This document shows, one piece after another, positions 10,692-17,102 of a DNA stretch of 64,000 bases. Below the pieces are notes generated by a model. The model did not search any database. It was not told the DNA's origin and saw only the letters and a list, made by a program, of their open reading frames with translations. The DNA comes from Nitrospira sp. (GTDB lineage Bacteria; Nitrospirota; Nitrospiria; Nitrospirales; Nitrospiraceae). Both the position numbers and the translations under genes were made by a program. The stretch is taken from NCBI GenBank assembly GCA_018242725.1, contig JAFEBI010000010.1, forward strand, positions 65,892-129,891. Reading direction: 5' to 3'. Within the stretch, counting starts at the first letter, position 1. Every line of letters begins with the position of its first letter.

Positions 10692-11819
10692 TTAGGCAGC
10701 TGGAGCGGCATTCAAAGTCGAGATTGAGGCGGTCGATTCCTTGACGACATCGATGAACAGGTCCAGAAGCTGTGGATCGAACTGCATCAGCGATGGGTTG
10801 GTGATCTGTTGAATGGCTTGTTCAACGGAAAGGGGAGAGCGTCCTGGAGCATCTGCAGTCAAATGGTCAAACAGCTGAGCCATACCCACAATGCGAGCCA
10901 AAAGCGGAGTCTCCGTACCGTGAAGTCCAAGGGGGTATCCTTGTCCATCCCATCGCTCATGGTGTGCGGCGATAATCTGTCCCACCTCAGCCGGTAGCCC
11001 TAAGTGTGCGATCATCCGAGCCCCGTTGCCGGGATGTTCTCGGCACAAAACAGGTTCCCGTGACGGCAGAACTTGATCGTCAGAAAACCGATAGTGAGGC
11101 AGGCTCGTTTTGCCGATGTCATGGAGAAAGGCTCCCACAGCCAAGGCCTTTTGGTCCGTGAGCGAAAGATTGAGTCGAGCAGCCATTAATGTGGCATAGA
11201 AACTCACACGACTCGAATGATTCAATAACGAACGATCAGTCGCCTCAAGGATGTCGGAAAACAGCGGAAGCGGTGTCATATCGTCTTGCAAGGGTATCGC
11301 TGCCGCAGGCTCATCGCTTGGAGACAGCGAAAAGTATTTGGTTTGGAGGGTTTGCCACGCATGGGTGCCCCGTTCCGGAGATCCCCAAAGATCCGGTGAG
11401 TTGTGGAGGTATCGCCGAAGAAAATCTAGTCGACGTTTTTTTTCAATTGTCTGTTGAATGAGCGTGGTCAGTTCGTGCGTATTGAACGGTTTAAGTAGAT
11501 AACCTGCCGCGCCGTGACGAATGCCCTCCATGGCGGATTTGAGGCTTCCATATCCCGTGACAACCACAACTTCTATGTCGGGGTATTTGAGCTTGATTTC
11601 TTGGAGGAGTTCTAGGCCTGGGCGATCCGGAAGTTTCTGATCGAGGGTAATAAGGTCAATCGGCTTCGTTCCGAGAAGCTTAAGTGCCATCCTGGCATTC
11701 TCGGCACAGTGGATGGTGCAAAACGGATCAAGCACAACTTTCAATGCGTCTCGTGGGCCTACTTCATCATCAATAATGAGAACAGTGGGTCTTGCGGGAG
11801 GTTGGATAAAAGTCGTCAT
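10692..11819 (-). CDS. Response regulator with HD-GYP domain (RpfG-like)
   Basis: A receiver domain at about residues 8-130 (phosphoacceptor D60 in LITLDQKLPDRPG, TGYGSLKSAMEG, LLKPF) is joined by a linker to an HD-GYP domain with LHDIGK and HHERWDGQGYP. Such proteins hydrolyse c-di-GMP under control of a histidine kinase, and all key residues are present. The frame can also start at a TTG at 11858 with AAGGA upstream; I chose the ATG at 11819. It lies downstream of a kinase and an NtrC-type regulator on the same strand but after a 200-base AT-rich gap, so it may have its own promoter. Confidence 0.92.
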   Translation of the reverse strand: MTTFIQPPARPTVLIIDDEVGPRDALKVVLDPFCTIHCAENARMALKLLGTKPIDLITLDQKLPDRPGLELLQEIKLKYPDIEVVVVTGYGSLKSAMEGIRHGAAGYLLKPFNTHELTTLIQQTIEKKRRLDFLRRYLHNSPDLWGSPERGTHAWQTLQTKYFSLSPSDEPAAAIPLQDDMTPLPLFSDILEATDRSLLNHSSRVSFYATLMAARLNLSLTDQKALAVGAFLHDIGKTSLPHYRFSDDQVLPSREPVLCREHPGNGARMIAHLGLPAEVGQIIAAHHERWDGQGYPLGLHGTETPLLARIVGMAQLFDHLTADAPGRSPLSVEQAIQQITNPSLMQFDPQLLDLFIDVVKESTASISTLNAAPAA

Positions 11820-11981
11820 TCGATCAATACTAGAGGATGCGAAATGAATTTTAAGCAAAATCCATTCCTTATCAACATCTTATAGTAAATGTACATATAT
11901 GGTATCAGGATTTATTTTAAATGCTACATATATGAACGTGAGATAAGTCTATGAAATATTGTTTATGTATCAATGATGGTA

Positions 11982-12018
11982 ACACGTGCAGAGACGTGGC
12001 ATTCTTGTAGGCACGTGT
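11982..12018. repeat. Inverted repeat downstream of the NtrC-type gene
   Basis: ACACGTGC (11982-11989) and GCACGTGT (12011-12018) form a perfect 8-base inverted repeat with a 21-base loop just past the stop of the minus-strand regulator. Each arm contains the palindrome CACGTG. A direct repeat CATTCTTG (12000-12007 and 12021-12028) overlaps it. There is no T-run, so it is not a classic terminator. It could be a binding site or an RNA 3' end. Confidence 0.35.
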
Positions 12019-12019
12019 G

Positions 12020-13450
12020 TCATTCTTGCATAGTATGTTCGGAATCCTGAGTAGTTGAGTTGTCCGGTCGCCCGATACCGAGTGTATCCATCCGATACTT
12101 GAGCATTCGACGACTGATCCCCAGTAAGTTCGCCGCATGGGTCTGGACATAATTAGTCCGCTTCAAGGCATTGAGAATGATTTCCCGCTCAAATTCCATC
12201 ACGGCTTTCTCGAGCGACATTCGACCAGCGAGGGTGTCATCGCGGAGCGATGGCGAACGCGAGCTGCTCTTCATCGATGTCGGTAAATGCTCCGGGGTAA
12301 TTTCCGTTGCATGTTGAGACCAAATGAATGCCTGCTCAATAACGTTTTCAAGTTCACGCACATTCCCCGGCCAGGGATAACGGGTCAGGAGTTCCAGCGC
12401 CTCTTTCCCAAATTCGATAGGGGGACGCTGTGCTTCCTCCAACCGTTTCTCCAAAAAATGATTGGCGATGAGGGAGATATCTTCGGTTCGTTCACGAAGA
12501 GGAGGCAGATAGAGTGAGATCACATTGATGCGATAGTAGAGATCTTCTCGGAACAGCCCTTTTCGGACAAGGTCATCGAGGTTTTTGTTGGTTGCCGCGA
12601 CGATGCGGACATCGACCTTAATCGGCTGCACTCCGCCGATTCTTGTAAACACTCGTTCTTGAATGACGCGCAACAGCTTGGCTTGCGTAATCGGACTGAG
12701 ATCGCCGACTTCATCGAGGAATAAAGTGCCTGTATTCGCCAGTTCGAACTGCCCGACACGTCTGGCAGTGGCGTCCGTAAAGGCTCCCTTTTCGTGGCCA
12801 AACAGTTCGCTTTCAATCAGAGTTTCTGGCAGCGCAGCGCAGTTGAGTGCGACAAACGGACGTTCTCGGCGGGAACTGTTGTAATGTAAGGCTTTGGCGA
12901 CCAACTCTTTGCCGGTCCCACTTTCTCCGGTGATGACCACCGTGGTTGTGCTGTCGGCAACTTGTTCAATTTTTGCGTAGATCTCCTGCATCCCCTGGCT
13001 TTTTCCGATCAGATTGTGAAACGCGTATCGTTTGACGACTTGTGCTCGTAATTGGGTGATTTCTTGTTCCAACCCCGAGGAGTTCAAGGCGCGGTCGATT
13101 ACGATTCGAAGTTCGTCGACGTCGAAGGGTTTCGAGAGATAGTCGGCCGCCCCCAACTTCATCGCGTCCACGGCAGTTTTCACGGATTTGGTGCCGGTGA
13201 GCATGATTACCGGAGTGGATTTTCGCTCAGTTCTGAGCATCTGAAGCACGGCGAGACCGTCGGTGCCAGGCAGGGCGATGTCGAGCAGAACCAGGTCCGG
13301 GGCTTCCTTGCGGAAGATATCGAGGCCTTCAGGACCGTCACTCGCTTGGGCGATATCGTACAGAGGCTCCAGCACCATTTTCAGCGAGGCACGGACCCTG
13401 GCCTCGTCATCAATCAATAATAGTCGTTTTTTTGCAATGACGCTTTCCAC
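12020..13450 (-). CDS. Sigma-54-dependent response regulator (NtrC family)
   Basis: Three domains in order. The first is a receiver (acidic pair D14/D15, phosphoacceptor D57 in VLLDIALPG, K107). The second is an AAA+ domain with Walker A GESGTGKE at 175-182 and the sigma-54-contacting GAFTDA at 222-227. The third is a C-terminal Fis-type helix-turn-helix (HAANLLGISRRMLKYRM). It activates sigma-54 promoters when phosphorylated. It starts 16 bases after the histidine kinase at 13467-14774, its probable partner. Targets cannot be told from the window. Confidence 0.95.
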   Translation of the reverse strand: MESVIAKKRLLLIDDEARVRASLKMVLEPLYDIAQASDGPEGLDIFRKEAPDLVLLDIALPGTDGLAVLQMLRTERKSTPVIMLTGTKSVKTAVDAMKLGAADYLSKPFDVDELRIVIDRALNSSGLEQEITQLRAQVVKRYAFHNLIGKSQGMQEIYAKIEQVADSTTTVVITGESGTGKELVAKALHYNSSRRERPFVALNCAALPETLIESELFGHEKGAFTDATARRVGQFELANTGTLFLDEVGDLSPITQAKLLRVIQERVFTRIGGVQPIKVDVRIVAATNKNLDDLVRKGLFREDLYYRINVISLYLPPLRERTEDISLIANHFLEKRLEEAQRPPIEFGKEALELLTRYPWPGNVRELENVIEQAFIWSQHATEITPEHLPTSMKSSSRSPSLRDDTLAGRMSLEKAVMEFEREIILNALKRTNYVQTHAANLLGISRRMLKYRMDTLGIGRPDNSTTQDSEHTMQE

Positions 13451-13466
13451 AAGAGCTCCTTGGGTA

Positions 13467-14774
13467 CTACTGATGTAGCGCAGGAAGAGTAATGCGGAAG
13501 GTCGTTCCTTGACCGACCATACTAGTTACGTGAATGTTGCCGTGATGTTCTTGAATGATCTGGTGTGCGATGGTTAATCCGAGCCCGGTTCCCGCGTTCA
13601 TCGTGCTTGAATGTTTCGTTGTGAAAAATGGATCAAAGATGTGCTCAAGATTCTCCGGCTCGATTCCATTTCCGGTGTCTTCAATGTCGATCTGCATGAA
13701 GAGGGCACCCTCTGGCTCCTGAAATTGATGTGTCCGCACCCGGAGGATCCCAGGTCCCTCACCCATAGCATCGAGGGCGTTTAAGAGGAGATTCAAAAGC
13801 ACCTGTTTGATTTGCTGCCGATCCAGCATGCCACGAGGAAGCTCAGGCGCCAACTGTTTTTCAATCTTGATCCCTCGCCTGTCCGCTTTAACTTGGACGA
13901 AATACACACAGGATGCGACGATATCATTTAGGTCCTCGTCGGTCACCTGCGGTTCCATGTAGCGGGCGTAGTCAAGAATCTCTTGAACCAATCGCTCAAT
14001 CCGATTGACGTCCTCAAGGACGATGCGGCTGAACTCCCCAATAAATTGACTGTCGTCTTTCCGTTCGGGGGCTAGTTGAATAAAGGTCTTAATGGAGGTT
14101 AACGGGTTGCGGATTTCATGGGCAAACCCACCGGCAATGATTTCCAGTGAGCGCAATCGGTCGGTTCGGCGCATGAGAGATTGGGATTGACAGAGATCCT
14201 CATAAATCAGGATCGAATCGAGTGCATTGGCGGCGCCCTGGGCCATCGCTGTCAGGAGTTCCATGGTAACGGATGAGAGCGATGCGTGTGTGGTCGGAGA
14301 CCGGAGTAATGCGAATGCGATCAGGGTTCCATGTGTGATAAGTGGAACGGCCAGAGTGTAGGAGCCTGGCAGGGTACTCGCTCTGTTCTCTGAAAGCTCG
14401 GAGTGTGGGGTAAGAGTTGCGTCCAGCCTGTCGAAAATGTGTTGGTCTGCAAGGAGAGCCAGGACCAGAGGATGGTCAACCTTCATGACCGAAGGTGCCA
14501 CAAAGGTCTTGATCGGTCCGAACATATGTATTTGACGGTAGTGACGATGTTCTCGTTCGAACAGGAACAGTGTGCCCTGTGGATAGCGAGAGATTTCAGA
14601 GAGGTTCAAAAGAATGTGGTTGGCAAGATGCGTCAGACTGGTTGGGTGTCCGATCGCTTGCAGAAACCGTGTCAGTGTCTGAATCGACTTATGACTGGCT
14701 GAAGATAAATCAGCTTGAGAAGATCTGGCGGCTATCATCACTGAGCAATGTTGAGGTAAATGGCTATCTGGCAT
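13467..14774 (-). CDS. GAF-domain sensor histidine kinase
   Basis: A cytoplasmic kinase of 435 residues without membrane segments. Residues about 35-195 resemble a GAF sensor domain. HisKA carries the phosphoacceptor H219 in FAHEIRNPLTSIK. The ATPase part has the N-box LLLNALDAMGEG, DTGNGIEPENL and GTGLGLTIAHQIIQ. It probably phosphorylates the sigma-54 activator encoded 16 bases downstream and perhaps the REC-HD-GYP protein after that. The signal is unknown. An alternative internal ATG is at residue 13. Confidence 0.93.
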   Translation of the reverse strand: MPDSHLPQHCSVMIAARSSQADLSSASHKSIQTLTRFLQAIGHPTSLTHLANHILLNLSEISRYPQGTLFLFEREHRHYRQIHMFGPIKTFVAPSVMKVDHPLVLALLADQHIFDRLDATLTPHSELSENRASTLPGSYTLAVPLITHGTLIAFALLRSPTTHASLSSVTMELLTAMAQGAANALDSILIYEDLCQSQSLMRRTDRLRSLEIIAGGFAHEIRNPLTSIKTFIQLAPERKDDSQFIGEFSRIVLEDVNRIERLVQEILDYARYMEPQVTDEDLNDIVASCVYFVQVKADRRGIKIEKQLAPELPRGMLDRQQIKQVLLNLLLNALDAMGEGPGILRVRTHQFQEPEGALFMQIDIEDTGNGIEPENLEHIFDPFFTTKHSSTMNAGTGLGLTIAHQIIQEHHGNIHVTSMVGQGTTFRITLPALHQ

Positions 14775-14880: not shown

Positions 14881-15057
14881 ATGCAAGACAGAGATGCTCT
14901 AATCCAGCGGGAGGTTCCTGCCTGTAAAGGCTGGGGAATCTATATCGAAAAGGGAATAGAGACGAAACGAGTGGGCGTGGACTTAGAGAGCGGAAAACCG
15001 GACCAGCCGTCTACGATGAGCAGACTGGCCCGGGTGCATAATCGCGCTACTGAGTGA
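14881..15057 (+). CDS. Possible small protein, 58 aa (uncertain)
   Basis: An open frame from ATG 14881 to TGA 15057 in the 272-base gap between the kinase gene and the next minus-strand gene. It encodes a charged peptide starting MQDRDALIQREVPACKG. GAGGG precedes the ATG by only one base, a poor spacing. It overlaps the 3' end of the convergent gene by 11 bases. I do not recognise it; it may be chance. Confidence 0.2.
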   Translation: MQDRDALIQREVPACKGWGIYIEKGIETKRVGVDLESGKPDQPSTMSRLARVHNRATE

Positions 15058-16048
15058 CGGAAGCACTCTTTGCCGGACAAGAGCCTGGCGTCATGTACAG
15101 CAAGTAGTTCCCCATCCCATGCTGGAACTCAGTTTTCTGAAGAGGATGATGATGGACCATCACCATTTCATAATCATCATCCTTACTGATCGGAAATCCT
15201 TGGGGATCTCGATAGACCTGATGGGGGAGGAATTCGCGGAGTGTTCCGTCCCCTTCTACATCCGGTACCGTCCGAAGAAGTGTTTGTTTCTTGGTCTTAT
15301 TCTCCAGCGCGATCATCAGCAGCTCATCGTGACCGTGCGGATAGGCGAACTTGACACATCCGCTTGTTGAAAACTTCAGCGGTGCCGTATGAACTTGAAC
15401 GCCATGCCGAATCTCAATTCCCTCGTCAGTCTGATCGGATGGGCGATCACCAAACTTGGTGAAGCACACGATGTTGACCCCGACTTGATAGATGTTCATT
15501 GCCTGGACAGGTTTGGCCTTGGGAGCAAAATACATGGTGAAGGTGGCAATGACGTTCTTGGTTGGTGGAGCACCATGATAGAAGGCCACGACCGTCATAA
15601 GTTTGTCGTTCTTCTCAAGTTTGACTCCGTATCCATCGGGGAATTGAGTTTCGGCCATCTCCAAACCAGCTCCGCCGAAGAAGAGCGGTTCTCCGGGGCA
15701 GGAGATGCTGGGTTGGCTGTTGTTGATCATCAAGATGTGATGCAGATAATTTCTCGGCAATTCTTTTCCATCGACCGTGGACAAGGCGGACTTAAAGCCG
15801 ATCAAGTACTTGTCCTCAGGCAACTGGAAGTTAAACCGAGGCATGGAATCGCCCATGTCGCCTTCGGTATGCCCGGCTGGAAGATCAATGGGTCCGAAGG
15901 TGAGAGTCGCTGTGTTCTCGCCATAGACGATCTTTGAACCGACCTGTTTTTTCAGTGTGGGAATGGCATGGTGGTCATGCCCCCCATCTGCATAGGCTGA
16001 TGAGATCATGAAAAAAGTTACTAGAAACAGAATGAGGGATCTGTGCAT
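15047..16048 (-). CDS. Secreted PHM-like copper monooxygenase family protein
   Basis: A 333-residue exported protein. Residues 1-20 are a signal peptide ending SSAYA, followed by a His-rich GGHDHH. The frame is open further up, but GGGAGG 5 bases before ATG 16048 fixes the start. The layout resembles the type 2 copper monooxygenase fold of peptidylglycine hydroxylating monooxygenase and the plant SURNod19 family. His-His is at 103-104 (LHHILMINN), FYHG at 156-159, His-x-His at 238-240 (YPHGHDELL), and a Met at 312 in GMGNYLLYM. These are the positions expected of the two copper sites. Substrate and activity are unknown; the family assignment is inference from motif order. It lies 80 bases after the SnoaL-like gene on the same strand. 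Confidence 0.7.
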   Translation of the reverse strand: MHRSLILFLVTFFMISSAYADGGHDHHAIPTLKKQVGSKIVYGENTATLTFGPIDLPAGHTEGDMGDSMPRFNFQLPEDKYLIGFKSALSTVDGKELPRNYLHHILMINNSQPSISCPGEPLFFGGAGLEMAETQFPDGYGVKLEKNDKLMTVVAFYHGAPPTKNVIATFTMYFAPKAKPVQAMNIYQVGVNIVCFTKFGDRPSDQTDEGIEIRHGVQVHTAPLKFSTSGCVKFAYPHGHDELLMIALENKTKKQTLLRTVPDVEGDGTLREFLPHQVYRDPQGFPISKDDDYEMVMVHHHPLQKTEFQHGMGNYLLYMTPGSCPAKSASVTQ

Positions 16049-16128
16049 AAGACCTCCCAGAGGCAGTGAAGCGATGATGTTGAACCGGACTCCGATTTGT
16101 CGATATACCTTAGAGGAAGCGGGTTGAC

Positions 16129-17004
16129 TCATTGGTTACTGGCCGGTGATGGTGCCACCTTTTTCCAGTGATAGGTGCCGCCGTGTTCTTTCGGCGGGAT
16201 ATTTTTTCTTGTATCGACTCGGGTGTACCACCAGATCCCCTTGGCTTCTTTCCCGTCTTCCGAGAGGAGCACCTCGAAACCACCTTCCCGATCATTGCCG
16301 GGCTGATGCCATGTGCCTTGCCAGAGGCGGTTCTCAATCTTGGTCGTGACGAATCGGCCGCCTTGTTGTGTGTAGGGGCCGTTCCCACTTTTATCTATGG
16401 TGGCTTTATAGCGTTTTTCATCCTCAACTTCGAGAATGTCCCACTCCCCGCTGACATCCGGCATGGAAACGGGAGCGGTACTGACGAGCTTTTGCGATCC
16501 AGCTGCCGCTGATGGCGACGCAAGCGGGCCACCGAGTTGAGCGGATCGAAAGGATTCATGCCATGATAACAGTTGCCAGCGTCCAGCGCGACGCTCGAGA
16601 ATGCCGGTTTCTCGTAACGGAAGCACCGTTCGTTTGACGGCCGATCCCTCAGCGACATAACGGATGTAGTCGACTTCCATCGCGAACCAAGCCAGATCGC
16701 CCTTGGTCCAGACCTTAAGCTCGGTGATCGGGATTTCGATTTTCTGAGCGTTGACAAATTCCTCACGCATCTCCCGCTCAAAGTCCGGCCAGCCAACATA
16801 TTTGCGACCACCGACGGTATAGCTGACAATGTCGGCATCGTGCGCCATGAGGCGTGACAGTGCAGGGAGGTCTTTATCGGCATTTGCGCGTATCATCAGC
16901 CGAATAGCCGTCTCGGGATCGGAGGGATCGGCAGCCCAGGAACTCGTGGTGACGAAGAGGAGCAAGGCAAGACTTCCAAGAATAAACGACGCCCGTTGGC
17001 GCAT
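16129..17004 (-). CDS. Exported SnoaL/NTF2-like protein with a C-terminal beta domain
   Basis: Residues 1-24 are a signal peptide (LGSLALLLFVTTSSWA). Then comes a SnoaL/DUF4440-type cone-shaped domain (IRLMIRANADKDLPALSRLM, then HDADIVSYTVGGRKYVGW). The second half (about 175-291) is a separate beta-rich domain beginning DVSGEWDILEVEDEKRY, with WQGTWHQPGNDREGGFEVLL. I chose the ATG at 17004 because GGGAG lies 8 bases upstream; the frame opens 15 bases earlier. No enzymatic residues can be assigned. It is followed by the secreted copper-type protein, and the two may act together in the periplasm. Confidence 0.75.
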   Translation of the reverse strand: MRQRASFILGSLALLLFVTTSSWAADPSDPETAIRLMIRANADKDLPALSRLMAHDADIVSYTVGGRKYVGWPDFEREMREEFVNAQKIEIPITELKVWTKGDLAWFAMEVDYIRYVAEGSAVKRTVLPLRETGILERRAGRWQLLSWHESFRSAQLGGPLASPSAAAGSQKLVSTAPVSMPDVSGEWDILEVEDEKRYKATIDKSGNGPYTQQGGRFVTTKIENRLWQGTWHQPGNDREGGFEVLLSEDGKEAKGIWWYTRVDTRKNIPPKEHGGTYHWKKVAPSPASNQ

Positions 17005-17102
17005 GTTAGAGACTCCCATTAGTATGACGGATTTGCCTTAGGTGATGAGGGAACGTACACGCCCTCGTGGGTCTTGTCAACTATTATGACGTCGACAGCA
17101 GC

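Follow-up and report, generated by a model that had tools for sequence, protein, structure and literature searches.

The locus described here raises the question of whether an exported protein of Nitrospira, encoded in a window of 64,000 nucleotides (the whole stretch of DNA that was analysed), carries the two copper sites of peptidylglycine hydroxylating monooxygenase (PHM). PHM and dopamine beta-hydroxylase (DBH) are animal enzymes making peptide hormones and noradrenaline. The ligands of their CuH and CuM sites and their two-site mechanism have been described (PMC6123673, PMC4846438), and in the open-licence literature this class of dicopper hydroxylases is described as eukaryotic. A first-pass annotation, made from the DNA alone, had read the order of His and Met residues in the Nitrospira protein as that of the two PHM copper sites, likened the protein to plant SURNod19 and pointed to an exported SnoaL-like neighbour. 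Below, we describe the gene, the predicted fold and ligand register of its product, its neighbourhood and distribution, and weigh the functions that it may have.

The gene and its product

The gene (Table 1) belongs to a Nitrospira genome of 4.0 Mb, and the best named relative of its product, among the matches listed, is found in Nitrospira sp. UW-LDO-01 (98% identity). An alternative in-frame ATG upstream, at 16132, would give a product of 361 amino acids; the start at 16048 is preferred because homologues align from there. The signal peptide proposed by the first-pass annotation is seen in the translation as a Sec-type signal (MHRSLILFLVTFFMISSAYA, followed by DGG), and the mature protein, after A20, begins with the His-rich stretch DGGHDHH. 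The numbers given earlier for the six candidate ligands, H103, H104, H158, H238, H240 and M312 (within HGMGNYLLYM), are likewise all correct in the translation.

Table 1. Features of the PHM-like gene and its upstream partner, with window coordinates
Feature	Position	Strand	Basis or counterpart
CDS of PHM-like exported protein (333 aa, P0001)	15047..16048	minus	translation, homologues, fold
Putative ribosome-binding site GGGAGG, 4 bases before ATG at 16048	16053..16058	minus	read from sequence
Signal peptide, residues 1-20 (predicted cleavage between AYA and DGG)	15989..16048	minus	sequence; hydrophobic stretch common to homologues
Codons of H103 and H104, CuH-type His-His	15737..15742	minus	PHM H107/H108, DBH H262/H263
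Codon of H158, third CuH-type His	15575..15577	minus	PHM H172, DBH H333
Codons of H238 to H240, CuM-type His-x-His	15329..15337	minus	PHM H242/H244, DBH H412/H414
Codon of M312, CuM-type Met	15113..15115	minus	PHM M314, DBH M487
Upstream partner: exported NTF2/SnoaL-like domain and C-terminal all-beta domain	16129..17019	minus	PF13474, NTF2 fold, synteny
Partner's C-terminal beta domain	16132..16467	minus	part retained in L050, L066

Sequence searches

The PHM-like protein has no match in Pfam, NCBIfam, PHROGs or the PDB sequences, the last also when searched with the family profile, and would therefore be annotated as hypothetical. When 36 members of the family were compared with Pfam-A by hmmscan at E values up to 10, the lone hit was DUF6488 (E 0.075, in one member), and no member matched the PHM families PF01082/PF03712. 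PF07712, the SURNod19 family, likewise matched none of these 36 members within the E limit of 10, which leaves the proposed SURNod19 resemblance unsupported; what the two have in common is export. Over 148 Nitrospirota genomes, neither Pfam Cu2_monoox_C nor PF07712 gave a match, in searches in which the control was silent too. A search of plasmids for the PHM-like gene found none, and a PHM query of plasmids, seeking bridging bacterial PHM sequences, gave no match either. Global and semi-global profile alignments against PHM and DBH gave no signal, with scores at or below those of shuffled columns, and anchored alignments against either enzyme scored no better than shuffles. Because alignment scores do not exceed shuffles, sequence relatedness to PHM is unproven; the kinship that we propose would lie in the predicted fold and the ligand register, with sequence similarity below significance.

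Predicted fold

The AlphaFold2 model, built template-free from an alignment of moderate depth (38 sequences, 67-99% identity), is almost all beta and forms a double jelly roll (pLDDT 80, pTM 0.79). Foldseek against the PDB placed PHM chains at ranks 1-28 (E 1.1e-9 to 1.2e-7), followed by DBH (E 8.5e-7) and, below DBH, by PNGase F-type enzymes (E 1.6e-4 and weaker). The same order was obtained with VIA, in which the match to PHM (6ala_C, Z 17.3, rmsd 3.0, 234 aligned) and to DBH (4zel_A, Z 17.0, rmsd 3.1, 240 aligned, 10% identity) spans nearly the full length of the model, and capsid jelly rolls, at Z about 6, mark the general jelly-roll background. A viral structure library gave weak matches only, several of them capsid proteins. 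The first-pass annotation had suggested AlphaFold with Foldseek as a check, and the fold so predicted is that of PHM and DBH and not an unrelated one; on this model, a PHM-like fold is highly probable. Together with the conserved ligands described below, it supports the earlier PHM interpretation.

PNGase F, a glycan amidase, lacks the copper ligands. It belongs to the same Pfam clan, with the same double jelly-roll fold, as PHM (PMC8812541), and its family provides the next match to the model, at Z 9 (1pgs, 1png; family maximum 9.1). A hydrolase of the PNGase F/PHM clan or a glycan-binding protein, in which the His and Met residues have a structural role or ligate some other metal, has thus to be weighed; with PHM and DBH at Z 17, about 8 Z units above the PNGase family, and with all six copper-ligand positions conserved, we regard it as quite improbable, and PNGase F was set aside as the closest fold.

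The three best VIA matches, 6ala_C, 4zel_A and 5wja_D, superpose at rmsd 3.0-3.6, and most other PHM entries at 4.5-5.7. Two of the three, 6ala_C and 5wja_D, are PHM copper-site mutants with citrate, and 4zel_A is DBH chain A; the H108A-citrate structure of PHM and chain A of DBH have been described as closed forms, in which the domains have moved toward each other (PMC6123673, PMC4846438). The model therefore also seems to be in a closed state, with both predicted ligand sets turned toward one cleft.

Register of the ligands against PHM and DBH

The VIA match ends with model residue 302 on PHM 324 and with residue 301 on DBH 496, and if the last strand (289-301) is gapless, M292 of the mature protein (M312 of the precursor) lands on the CuM methionine of each enzyme, M314 in PHM and M487 in DBH. 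The PHM and DBH structures thus yield, independently of each other, an identical register for M312. For the first domain, hhalign found one local segment only, of 43 columns (E 0.048, not significant alone), which without constraint placed LHH on VHH and FPDGYGVKL on LPKGVGFRV and whose gapless extension brings H158 onto PHM H172. The spacing P-x3-G-x16-H is identical in the three proteins, that from H158 to M312 (154 residues) is the same as from DBH H333 to M487, and that from HxH to Met is 72 residues here, 70 in PHM and 73 in DBH.

When alignments were anchored at H158 and M312, H238/H240 fell on DBH H412/H414 under 5 of 6 gap settings, a result that shuffles gave once in 60; anchored to PHM, they met its HxH in 2 of 6 settings only. 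In a local window scan, the HH site alone stood out, ranking first against PHM. The H158 window matched best at PHM 143 (NAPPT), a placement that was set aside because it breaks collinearity with the anchors at HH and PxxxG. Taken together, fold, order, spacing and invariance point to a ligand assignment that is positional, not geometric, and it is in this form that the agreement first noticed between the ligand order and the two PHM copper sites holds.

Convergence or an AlphaFold artefact, by which an unrelated beta protein would carry HH...H...HxH...M by coincidence, could draw on the lack of significant sequence similarity to PHM/DBH and on an alignment of only moderate depth. Set against it are a fairly confident model made without templates, in which PHM and DBH come top over nearly the whole length and well apart from the jelly-roll background, and the M312 register shared by two structures; we consider it very improbable.

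Conservation of the ligand residues

Among 144 distinct homologues, H103, H104, H238, H240 and M312 are invariant, and H158 is His in 142, with one Asp and one Gln. H300, C117, C195 and C231 are likewise invariant in this set, and nearly every member also has Q277 and N314, which lie close to the sites. The six ligand positions persist down to 38-45% identity, save for the one Asp at H158, and in an alignment of 36 rows reaching down to 38% identity, M312 is the sole invariant Met. Poor conservation had been named at the outset as a sign against PHM; the six positions are kept in close and distant homologues alike, and, judged from these alignments, the six-residue pattern is more than chance would give.

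The Asp at H158 occurs in the second, fast-evolving copy of genome G281 (L047 4998-5954, minus strand), and the Gln in one Nitrospira copy (L135, ORF from 5869). These two proteins amount to a natural experiment on the CuH site.

Comparison with PHM and DBH

PHM holds the carboxylate of its peptide substrate via R240, N316 and Y318. Like PHM (PF01082/PF03712; 1phm, 6ala), the Nitrospira protein is exported and has the jelly rolls in the same order, with HH and H in the first and HxH and M in the second, similar ligand spacing and a PxxxG...H motif. An Asn follows two residues past the CuM-type Met (N316 in PHM, N314 here), and the invariant Q277 may, by manual comparison, be the counterpart of PHM Q272, a pairing that the anchored alignments did not recover. 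By position, however, R240 is replaced by Y236 and Y318 by L316, so that only the Asn of the carboxylate-binding residues is kept. The protein also differs from PHM in being bacterial, in having four invariant Cys where PHM has five disulfides, and in being without the lyase (PAL) domain. From DBH (4zel, closed chain A), it differs in having neither a DOMON nor a dimerisation domain. No PAL-like lyase is found among the neighbouring genes, and as R240 and Y318 are not kept either, a peptide-amidating enzyme proper is unlikely; with the carboxylate-binding Arg and Tyr absent, the substrate is most likely not a glycine-extended peptide.

The SnoaL-like partner and the gene neighbourhood

The gene upstream encodes a protein with its own signal peptide and a SnoaL_3 domain (PF13474, E 5e-14), the model of which matches an NTF2-like putative dehydratase at Z 18.3, and thus bears out the earlier description of an exported SnoaL-like neighbour. 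Its C-terminal beta domain has no Pfam match. In most loci, among them those of relatives in families f3 and f8 (L049, L050), the partner gene adjoins the PHM-like one. In two loci (L050 5975-6577, minus strand; L066 4417-4884, plus strand), the partner ORF as called mechanically lacks the SnoaL domain and consists of the C-terminal domain only, which suggests that the latter is the constant part. The SnoaL domain has invariant H60-D61-x-D63 and H154-E155-S156, which might form a metal-binding or a catalytic site.

Around the pair lie genes for a PP2C phosphatase, an RNase H-like protein, a histidine kinase and two response regulators, an arrangement kept across Nitrospira. Those directly downstream (10692-14774, minus strand) encode the histidine kinase, an NtrC-type sigma-54 activator and an HD-domain response regulator, are syntenic across Nitrospira and possibly regulate the pair.

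No copper gene lies beside the window copy, and the main copies sit outside copper-homeostasis operons. Each of the three copies of the second, more divergent type (see below) for which the context is known has multicopper-oxidase genes at a distance of up to about 5 kb; in L054 (2968-4914) and L056 (6021-7936), the copy is preceded by two adjacent FGE-sulfatase (formylglycine-generating-like) genes and a gene for a 607-aa multicopper-oxidase-like protein. A cupredoxin gene (PF13473) divergently adjoins two of the four copies in family f2 (L048 4492-4917, minus strand; L058 3550-3945, plus strand), and this small cupredoxin is a possible electron donor. As far as gene content tells, a copper-redox setting is a property of the second-type and f2 copies, not of the window copy.

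Distribution and divergent copies

Bacteria of the Nitrospira family are nitrite and ammonia oxidisers. By profile search, the PHM-like gene was detected in 111 of 395 Nitrospirota genomes, of which 105 are among the 110 genomes of its own family, Nitrospiraceae, and 6 are scattered over other families (counted manually from the profile-search listing). Records with the gene include, among the matches listed, those of N. moscoviensis (a nitrite oxidiser), a N. lenta MAG and several CG24 MAGs. The best 80 of 159 contig-scan matches are from Nitrospira or Nitrospirota, save one titled uncultured Nitrosospira. A tie to nitrite oxidation as such was considered and rejected: family f3 genomes with a Nitrospiraceae-type narH-like gene are mostly without the PHM-like gene, which is therefore not simply tracking the narH-like gene.

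Some genomes contribute a second copy to the tree, which is the more divergent one (L054, L055, L056). Several genomes also contain pieces of the gene that are short or broken by stops (G311:C1:45408-45652, G326:C43:1210-2050 and G279:C31:139037-139183) and that look like decaying second copies.

Proposed function

We propose, with a probability of roughly 0.6 and on the strength of the predicted fold and ligand register, that the PHM-like protein is a periplasmic CuH/CuM dicopper, O2-dependent oxygenase. In the mechanism that we infer, including copper binding, O2 chemistry, the electron donor and the role of the partner, H103, H104 and H158, in the first jelly roll, would be the ligands of CuH, and H238, H240 and M312, in the second, those of CuM, with the two sites facing each other over the interdomain cleft. 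As in PHM and DBH, CuM(I) would bind O2, an external reductant would feed electrons via CuH, and a substrate C-H bond near CuM would be hydroxylated. In the bacterial periplasm, the donor would probably be a cupredoxin or c-type cytochrome, not ascorbate, and the NTF2/SnoaL-plus-beta protein encoded upstream is a probable partner, which may deliver the substrate or convert the hydroxylated product.

The protein could instead be a non-catalytic periplasmic copper protein, in which the PHM-like fold and sites serve to buffer or sense copper or to hand it on, for instance to multicopper oxidases. Such a role would suit the further conserved His residues H24, H60 and H300 and the His-rich mature N-terminus, the multicopper-oxidase and cupredoxin genes near the divergent copies, and the absence of the PHM carboxylate-binding Arg and Tyr. 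The exact 3-His and 2-His/Met sites, kept together with Q277 and N314, nevertheless exceed what a copper store needs, and the location of the main copies outside copper-homeostasis operons argues in the same direction, so that we consider this role unlikely.

Implications

The dicopper oxygenase that we propose would be a new, highly divergent bacterial variant of this enzyme class. We do not claim it as the first from a bacterium, because the literature considered was the open-licence part. The fuller picture, of a bacterial branch of dicopper hydroxylases that has a periplasmic cupredoxin or cytochrome in place of ascorbate and acts as a system of two proteins, the other being the exported NTF2-fold partner, forming a near-universal core trait of the Nitrospiraceae nitrifiers, is put forward tentatively and is itself rather doubtful. 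If true, the proposal would place PHM copper chemistry in one of the main groups of nitrifiers, would offer a bacterial system in which to study the disputed open/closed mechanism of dicopper enzymes and would point to an oxygenase step in the periplasmic metabolism of these nitrifiers.
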